Source of the DNA: Thioalkalivibrio nitratireducens DSM 14787 | GTDB lineage: Bacteria; Pseudomonadota; Gammaproteobacteria; Ectothiorhodospirales; Ectothiorhodospiraceae | Direction: 5' to 3' | Length of the DNA stretch: 64,000 nt | Assembly (NCBI RefSeq): GCF_000321415.2 | Contig: NC_019902.2 | Coordinates: 2,418,001 to 2,482,000 of the forward strand | Shown here: positions 11,149 through 11,753 of the stretch, one piece after another | How the letters are laid out: every line of letters begins with the position of its first letter | How positions within the stretch are numbered: position 1 is the first letter of the stretch | Program-made: the position numbers and the translations under genes | Notes under the pieces: generated by a model | What the model was told of the DNA's origin: nothing | The model's database searches: none | Seen by the model: only the letters and a program-made list of their open reading frames with translations

Positions 11149-11213
11149 TCGTCGGCGGCGCTCGCCGCCAGCGCGGCCTTCCGGTCAATCGGGGTACGCC
11201 GGGCAGGGCTATT

Positions 11214-11232
11214 CTTGACTATTTCACTCAGG
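11214..11232 (+). promoter_or_regulatory. IscR type-1-like operator overlapping a promoter
   Basis: The 19-bp sequence CTTGACTATTTCACTCAGG matches the palindromic type-1 IscR consensus as I know it (CCTGACTAwwTTAGTCAGG) at 16 of 19 positions, and is followed by AATA as in several IscR sites. TTGACT is also a good -35 box; TAGATT 16 bp downstream is a weaker -10. The site lies about 70 bp upstream of the ATG of the monooxygenase-fold gene. IscR type-1 sites are bound by the [2Fe-2S] form, so repression in iron-sulfur-replete cells would be expected. Confidence 0.5.
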
Positions 11233-11303
11233 AATATAGATTAGCGTTCAACGATGTACCGAAACGCCCCGTCCCGGGGCGGTATCCAGCCCAGGAGGCA
11301 GTC

Positions 11304-11753
11304 ATGAGTCAGCTCATCAGCAACTTCCCTACCGATGGTGTCGTGACCCTCAACCGCGTGATCATCAAGCCCGAGTACACGGTGGACGATCTGCAGGAGC
11401 GGGTCGCGGTACTGTGCGAGAATGTGAAGACCTACCATTCGGACACGGGATTCGTCGGCGGCTTCGTCGCGCTGAATTCCGGCGCCGTATCGAACGAGGG
11501 CTCGACCGTCGGCCAGGCCGTGGACAGCCCGCTGAAGGATCGCGAGGCCCTGATCATCACGTTCTGGAGATCCTTCGAGGACCACGAGGCCTCGCACCGG
11601 AGCGAGACGTTCCAGCCACTGTTCCGCGAAGTACTCGACCTGTGCGAGAACGGCAACGAGGAAATCGCGTACGAAATGCTCTGGTCGGGCAAGGCCTACT
11701 CGGCCGAGGAGGCGCAGGCGGCCCGGGAAGCCAAGGCGCGCTACGCGGCCTGA
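11304..11753 (+). CDS. ABM-fold (antibiotic biosynthesis monooxygenase-like) protein
   Basis: The 149-residue soluble protein starts at MSQLISNFP after a strong AGGAGG. The pattern of a beta strand near the start (VVTLNRVIIKP), then ALIITFWRSFEDHEASHRSETF and a C-terminal helix/strand is that of dimeric alpha-beta barrel (ABM) proteins. That superfamily includes heme-degrading and quinol monooxygenases. No Asn/Trp pair diagnostic of IsdG-type heme oxygenase was identified, so the reaction is unknown. The gene stands alone behind the IscR-like promoter and ends at a GC-rich hairpin, suggesting iron- or redox-linked control. Confidence 0.6.
   Translation: MSQLISNFPTDGVVTLNRVIIKPEYTVDDLQERVAVLCENVKTYHSDTGFVGGFVALNSGAVSNEGSTVGQAVDSPLKDREALIITFWRSFEDHEASHRSETFQPLFREVLDLCENGNEEIAYEMLWSGKAYSAEEAQAAREAKARYAA

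Follow-up and report, generated by a model that had tools for sequence, protein, structure and literature searches.

At one place in the window, by which we mean the whole 64,000-nucleotide stretch analyzed here (bases 2418001 to 2482000 of the single 4,002,350-bp contig of Thioalkalivibrio nitratireducens DSM 14787), what looks like an operator for IscR, a sensor of iron-sulfur (Fe-S) clusters, precedes the gene of a small protein. We asked what this protein is likely to be, and whether IscR is likely to control it. The gene (window positions 11304 to 11753, stop codon included, plus strand) encodes a single-domain, ABM-fold protein of 149 amino acids resembling sulfur oxygenase reductase (SOR), as judged from its open reading frame (ORF) and from profile and structure-prediction evidence. 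Upstream of it, on the same strand, lie a predicted 25-bp type-1 IscR operator (11211 to 11235), the −35 hexamer TTGACT within that operator (11215 to 11220), the −10 hexamer TAGATT (11237 to 11242), and the sequence AGGAGG (11293 to 11298), which is likely the ribosome-binding site.

The gene stands alone, with oligopeptide-ABC-type genes upstream and Mrp-antiporter-type genes downstream on the opposite strand (names assigned by eye). When neighboring ORFs were clustered for 80 loci of the family and for 40 further ones, no partner common to most of them emerged, and we set aside the idea of an operon partner or a conserved gene pair. In Thiobacillus-type loci (e.g., L077 and L091), a small S24/LexA-like ORF is located directly upstream of the gene (23 loci); together with the mutL and miaA-like genes around these loci, we read it as synteny.

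Family, fold, and conserved residues of the protein

Scored as a single sequence, the protein stays below the Pfam cutoffs of both SOR (PF07682; 16.9 bits versus 25) and ABM (PF03992; 14.7 bits versus a gathering cutoff of 23.1), so that it does not formally enter the ABM family. Nor is it a full-length SOR: it reaches 18.9 bits with the NCBIfam model NF047630, whose cutoff is 400 bits, and it consists of one domain of 149 amino acids, whereas the SOR chains listed have 307 to 318 residues. By sequence, the closest named relative is nevertheless the N-terminal half of SOR (PF07682, NF047630), an enzyme that assembles into a hollow sphere of 24 subunits and both oxygenates and reduces S0. The sequence-only reading had described an ABM-fold protein of unknown function, which is right as to the fold but too general as to the family. 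The genome also encodes two full-length SORs (2805693 to 2806646 and 1116195 to 1117064; 414 and 215 bits), one of them divergent, which makes the gene studied here a third, separate one.

To characterize the family, we aligned 85 sequences chosen from those fetched, of which 66 belong to subfamily A, that of the window protein, and 19 to subfamily B. Mean column identity was 86% among 12 orthologues, and 24 columns were invariant across all 85 sequences, including Cys38, His94, His98, and Glu120; of the glutamates at 115, 119, 120, and 124, the one at 120 alone is kept without exception in both subfamilies. When the 85-sequence profile was searched against the PDB, SOR chains ranked first (best E value, 9.2e-7), with unrelated triosephosphate isomerases starting at an E value of 0.0095. 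A comparison with ten SOR sequences from relatives by hhalign gave an E value of 9.2e-6 and a probability of 83%, compared with just 17.5% for a 12-sequence profile.

According to the excerpted text of PMC7398979, the iron of SOR is held by His86, His90, and Glu114, and alanine variants of these residues or of Cys31 are inactive; the SOR cysteines lie 9.5 to 13 Å from the metal. Both hmmsearch and hhalign pair His94 (codon at 11583 to 11585) with His86 and His98 (11595 to 11597) with His90. Glu120 (11661 to 11663) is paired with Glu114 by hmmsearch and left unaligned by hhalign, while Cys38 (11415 to 11417) is paired with Cys31 by hhalign and shifted by one residue in hmmsearch; thus, no single alignment pairs all four residues. 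As far as sequence alignment goes, then, the two histidines, the glutamate, and the cysteine of SOR all have counterparts in this protein, invariant in 85 of 85 members.

The AlphaFold monomer model (pLDDT, 90.0; pTM, 0.79) has the ABM fold, a ferredoxin-like alpha+beta arrangement; an earlier one, built on 12 sequences, reached a pLDDT of just 66.3 and was discarded. In structural comparisons, the ABM protein SnoaB has the same predicted fold and the higher score (Z, 14.5; rmsd, 1.5 over 97 residues; identity, 16%), against a Z of 11.6 for SOR, aligned over chain residues 125 to 301, so by structure SOR does not stand out among the ABM proteins. With SnoaB and other ABM proteins as the best structural matches, and with 19 of the 85 members touching Pfam ABM at an E value of ≤0.1, the protein might be an ordinary ABM-fold enzyme or a binding protein for a small organic molecule, whose conserved His, Glu, and Cys are structural and whose likeness to SOR reflects the shared fold. 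We consider this unlikely, given that 69 of the 85 members touch Pfam SOR, that SOR chains lead the PDB sequence search (though unrelated triosephosphate isomerases come up at E values of about 0.01), that the four SOR catalytic residues are invariant despite an identity of about 35% between the subfamilies, and that the distribution of the family tracks sulfur oxidation, as described below. Judging from its residues, the protein likely binds iron in the manner of SOR.

Distribution among sulfur-oxidizing bacteria

An orthologue was found in 20 of the 24 other genomes of the same genus, the four misses being 66 to 80% complete, and in 18 of 18 same-genus genomes with a completeness of at least 90%. 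Of 369 genomes sampled from the class, 73 had a match: 50 carry subfamily A and 25 carry subfamily B, which is about 34% identical (five with both), and three contain fragments only (G105, G169, and G234), which we left out of the carrier lists. Among the 50 subfamily A genomes, 44 encode dsrA, 46 encode soxB, and 49 encode at least one of the two, compared with 115 of 319 noncarriers (Fisher P value of 1.7e-18, kinship ignored). These co-occurrence lists were compiled by hand with E value thresholds of <1e-70 for subfamily A, <1e-30 for dsrA, and roughly <1e-130 for soxB, and the two genes are markers rather than proof of sulfur oxidation. Three genomes of about 1 Mb that keep the gene also all contain dsrA. 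The family is found mainly in sulfur-oxidizing bacteria. Subfamily B, whose members have about 130 amino acids and are 31 to 38% identical to the window protein, shares the four residues and the kind of genome (dsr/sox) but differs from subfamily A upstream, where an IscR-type site of at least 19/25 occurs in just 1 of 19 regions (L159 to L171 and L173 to L178).

A second explanation would make the product an iron donor or Fe-S repair protein, the same site binding iron and passing it to cluster assembly, in the way of IscR-regulon accessory proteins. The predicted IscR control and the likely iron site both fit such a role, as does the occurrence of the gene in lineages such as Halochromatium, an anaerobic phototroph. 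Among the loci clustered, however, the gene was not found in isc or suf neighborhoods, and the invariant cysteine aligned to Cys31 of SOR points to sulfur chemistry, which makes this explanation improbable.

The operator and its candidate regulators

The 25 bp at 11211 to 11235 read ATTCTTGACTATTTCACTCAGGAAT and agree at 22 of 25 positions with the E. coli type-1 IscR consensus, as quoted in PMC3899308, a palindrome of the form ATASYYGACTRWWWYAGTCRRSTAT. For scoring, we built a weight matrix from 19 hand-picked iscR-promoter sites of other genomes, leaving out sites of the genome itself, duplicates, and the second IscR paralogue type (L133 to L138); since the training sites were selected by their likeness to the E. 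coli consensus, the matrix is circular to that extent. The site scores 30.1 bits, the top value among 127,952 window positions, compared with 19.6 bits for its own reverse strand and 10.5 bits for the next-best other position. On the same matrix, the E. coli K-12 iscR site ATAGTTGACCAATTTACTCGGGAAT, which was outside the training set, scores 32.3 bits. The site therefore carries the same 25-bp motif as the type-1 operator at the isc promoter of E. coli, and both overlap promoter elements, but the gene targeted here is not one for Fe-S assembly, and an ISC operon was not found in the genome.

Two degenerate patterns, searched through the 4.0-Mb genome with up to 3 mismatches, matched the site, its reverse complement, and the promoter of one IscR-like gene, while the reversed-pattern controls gave 0 matches genome-wide for both. 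As the patterns were written to fit 11211 to 11235, their match to this site is no proof, and the result lies in the scarcity of other matches. The TTGACT/TAGATT pair is the only sigma-70-like pair between 10500 and 12500 (1 found, against a mean of 0.3 in shuffles); with this promoter, identified by consensus match, the −35 falls inside the predicted operator, where a bound regulator could block RNA polymerase. This confirms the sequence-only reading in its central claim of an IscR-type site on the −35 of the only apparent promoter. The span it had given, 11214 to 11242, contains most of the site and also the −10; the full operator is the 25 bp at 11211 to 11235. By its sequence, the site is very probably a genuine IscR-type operator.

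Conservation upstream of orthologues points in the same direction. A consensus score of at least 19/25 was reached in 20 of 26 orthologue upstream regions (own genome included), in 45 of 62 regions of a wider set (versus 10 of 2408 control windows), and in 14 of 21 further loci of a third set; with the matrix, 60 of 80 orthologue loci scored at least 15 bits (versus 12 of 3164 control windows), another 5 scored 10 to 15 bits, and 15 scored below 10 bits. The sets overlap in species. Among the matches of at least 19 in the 62-region set, the site lies at distances between −56 and −154 from the start codon, so its conservation is not simply that of an upstream region frozen as a whole. Across 21 loci of the genus, the columns within the site average about 1.25 bits, against about 0.39 for the 40 columns before it (means computed by hand), although this comparison favors the site, as the rows were aligned on their best site.

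Lineages with the site comprise Thioalkalivibrio, Thiobacillus, Rhodocyclaceae, Candidatus Thiodiazotropha, and one Sedimenticola locus (L104). A match to a motif derived from the iscR promoters of other genomes, together with retention across several lineages, supports the proposed placement of the gene in the IscR regulon, as far as sequence can. In the matrix scan of the 80 loci, several other Sedimenticola loci and Halochromatium lacked a site (<10 bits). IscR matches were present in all four site-less genomes tested (L062, L052, L109, and L102), indicating that IscR control was lost, was replaced, or was never gained there. The gene is also kept without the operator in three genomes of about 1.0 to 1.1 Mb (L147, L148, and L149), likely those of reduced symbionts. 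Given these and the 15 of 80 loci below 10 bits, IscR control is not universal in the family.

Concerning the regulator itself, the genome does contain iscR, as the sequence-only reading presupposed. Two iscR genes, at 1175923 and, for the second copy, 783128, encode all cluster ligands (Cys92, Cys98, Cys104, and His107, read by eye), one scoring above the TIGR02010 cutoff (209.3 versus 207.55 bits) and the other just below it (201.9 bits), and all 14 of the other carrier genomes tested had an IscR match as well. Upstream of the canonical iscR (L001), the matrix gives a weaker match of 12.5 bits, compared with 6.6 bits for the second iscR (L002); no site above 5 bits was found at the suf loci of the genome (L004, L115, and L116) or at its sufU-like locus (L114), and the isc/suf promoters of this genome thus yielded no motif of their own. 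A Rrf2-type gene adjoins the suf locus, and iscU was not found in this genome, whose single NifU_N match scores as SufU-like. Thiobacillus thioparus has an iscR gene with two type-1-like sites and with iscS after it.

The closest second type-1 site of the genome belongs to the promoter of an IscR paralogue (347455 to 347931, minus strand) with no cysteine in the ligand region. Cysteines are absent from this region in 11 of 11 sequences, namely, the paralogue and its 10 close orthologues, which are 86 to 100% identical, while the rest reach 66% or less. The paralogue is perhaps a cluster-independent IscR and is a candidate coregulator in this clade. IscR-like proteins without part or all of the ligand cysteines also occur in other sulfur oxidizers (L137, L138, L139, and L144), so ligand loss seems recurrent in this group.

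The operator could accordingly be real and yet be read in this clade by the Cys-less paralogue, as a cluster-independent repressor or activator, rather than by IscR holding its cluster. The paralogue's own promoter is the only other genome-wide match of the first pattern, and 9 of the 11 paralogue promoters score at least 15 bits (the other two, 11.3 and 12.8 bits). The operator is, however, also present in same-genus genomes in which no close orthologue of the paralogue was found, and in Thiobacillus, so the paralogue cannot be the general regulator, and we regard its taking the place of holo-IscR as quite unlikely. Least credible of all is a chance promoter match devoid of regulation: the operator includes a usual −35 hexamer, and some of its conservation is therefore owed to the promoter, but when the 250-bp upstream region was dinucleotide shuffled 2000 times, no shuffle reached 30.1 bits (maximum, 10.8), and both half-sites are conserved across lineages.

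Sulfur oxidation and Fe-S cluster supply: a possible link

On balance, we favor a reading in which the gene, repressed by IscR, encodes a SOR-like iron protein of half size that stands alone and acts on sulfane sulfur. Its regulatory half is well supported by sequence, whereas the chemical half is offered as a hypothesis from the conserved residues and the distribution. Type-1 operators are bound by [2Fe-2S]-IscR rather than by its apo form. From the computed operator and its conservation we infer that holo-IscR, with its [2Fe-2S] cluster, would occupy the −35 and keep the gene repressed, and that a shortage of Fe-S clusters, or damage to them, would leave IscR without its cluster and allow expression. 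The computed fold, the residue conservation, and the joint occurrence with genes of sulfur oxidation suggest that the product, one ABM-fold domain, would probably form a homodimer, with a mononuclear nonheme iron on His94, His98, and Glu120 and a persulfide carried by a reactive Cys38. In bacteria with Sox or reverse Dsr, it would then process sulfane sulfur or render it harmless, its supply being tied to Fe-S status. Sulfane sulfur as the substrate is a tentative assignment, which we hold less firmly than the iron site.

In the open-license literature, we found no paper describing this family or its control by IscR. A review of sulfur oxidation in 75 Thioalkalivibrio genomes reports full SOR in three strains, and the words monooxygenase and IscR are absent from its main text (PMC6382920). 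For Acidithiobacillus thiooxidans, an in silico network assigns IscR to 8 of 22 sulfur-oxidation operons, with no such gene named in the excerpted text (PMC6966769). In Allochromatium vinosum grown on pyrite, Alvin_1688, annotated as an “antibiotic biosynthesis monooxygenase,” falls along with the dsr genes (log2 value of −2.73), while iscR rises (+2.39) (PMC11267869, Table 1). Alvin_1688 is named by annotation and may not belong to the family described here; if it does, its fall while iscR rises counts against the reading favored here.

More broadly, and with less assurance than for the window gene, the data could reflect a widespread, as yet unnamed family of half-size SOR-like nonheme iron enzymes, regular in oxidizers with Sox or reverse Dsr and handling sulfane sulfur or persulfides, whose level IscR matches to Fe-S status in many lineages. 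This half-size family may be similar to the one-domain ancestor from which SOR arose by duplication and fusion. How sulfur oxidizers handle cytoplasmic sulfane sulfur without harm to their Fe-S proteins is poorly resolved. A small conserved protein with the catalytic residues of SOR and a predicted Fe-S-sensing switch is a concrete and easily tested candidate, and it suggests that sulfur oxidation is linked to the supply of Fe-S clusters in a way not yet studied.
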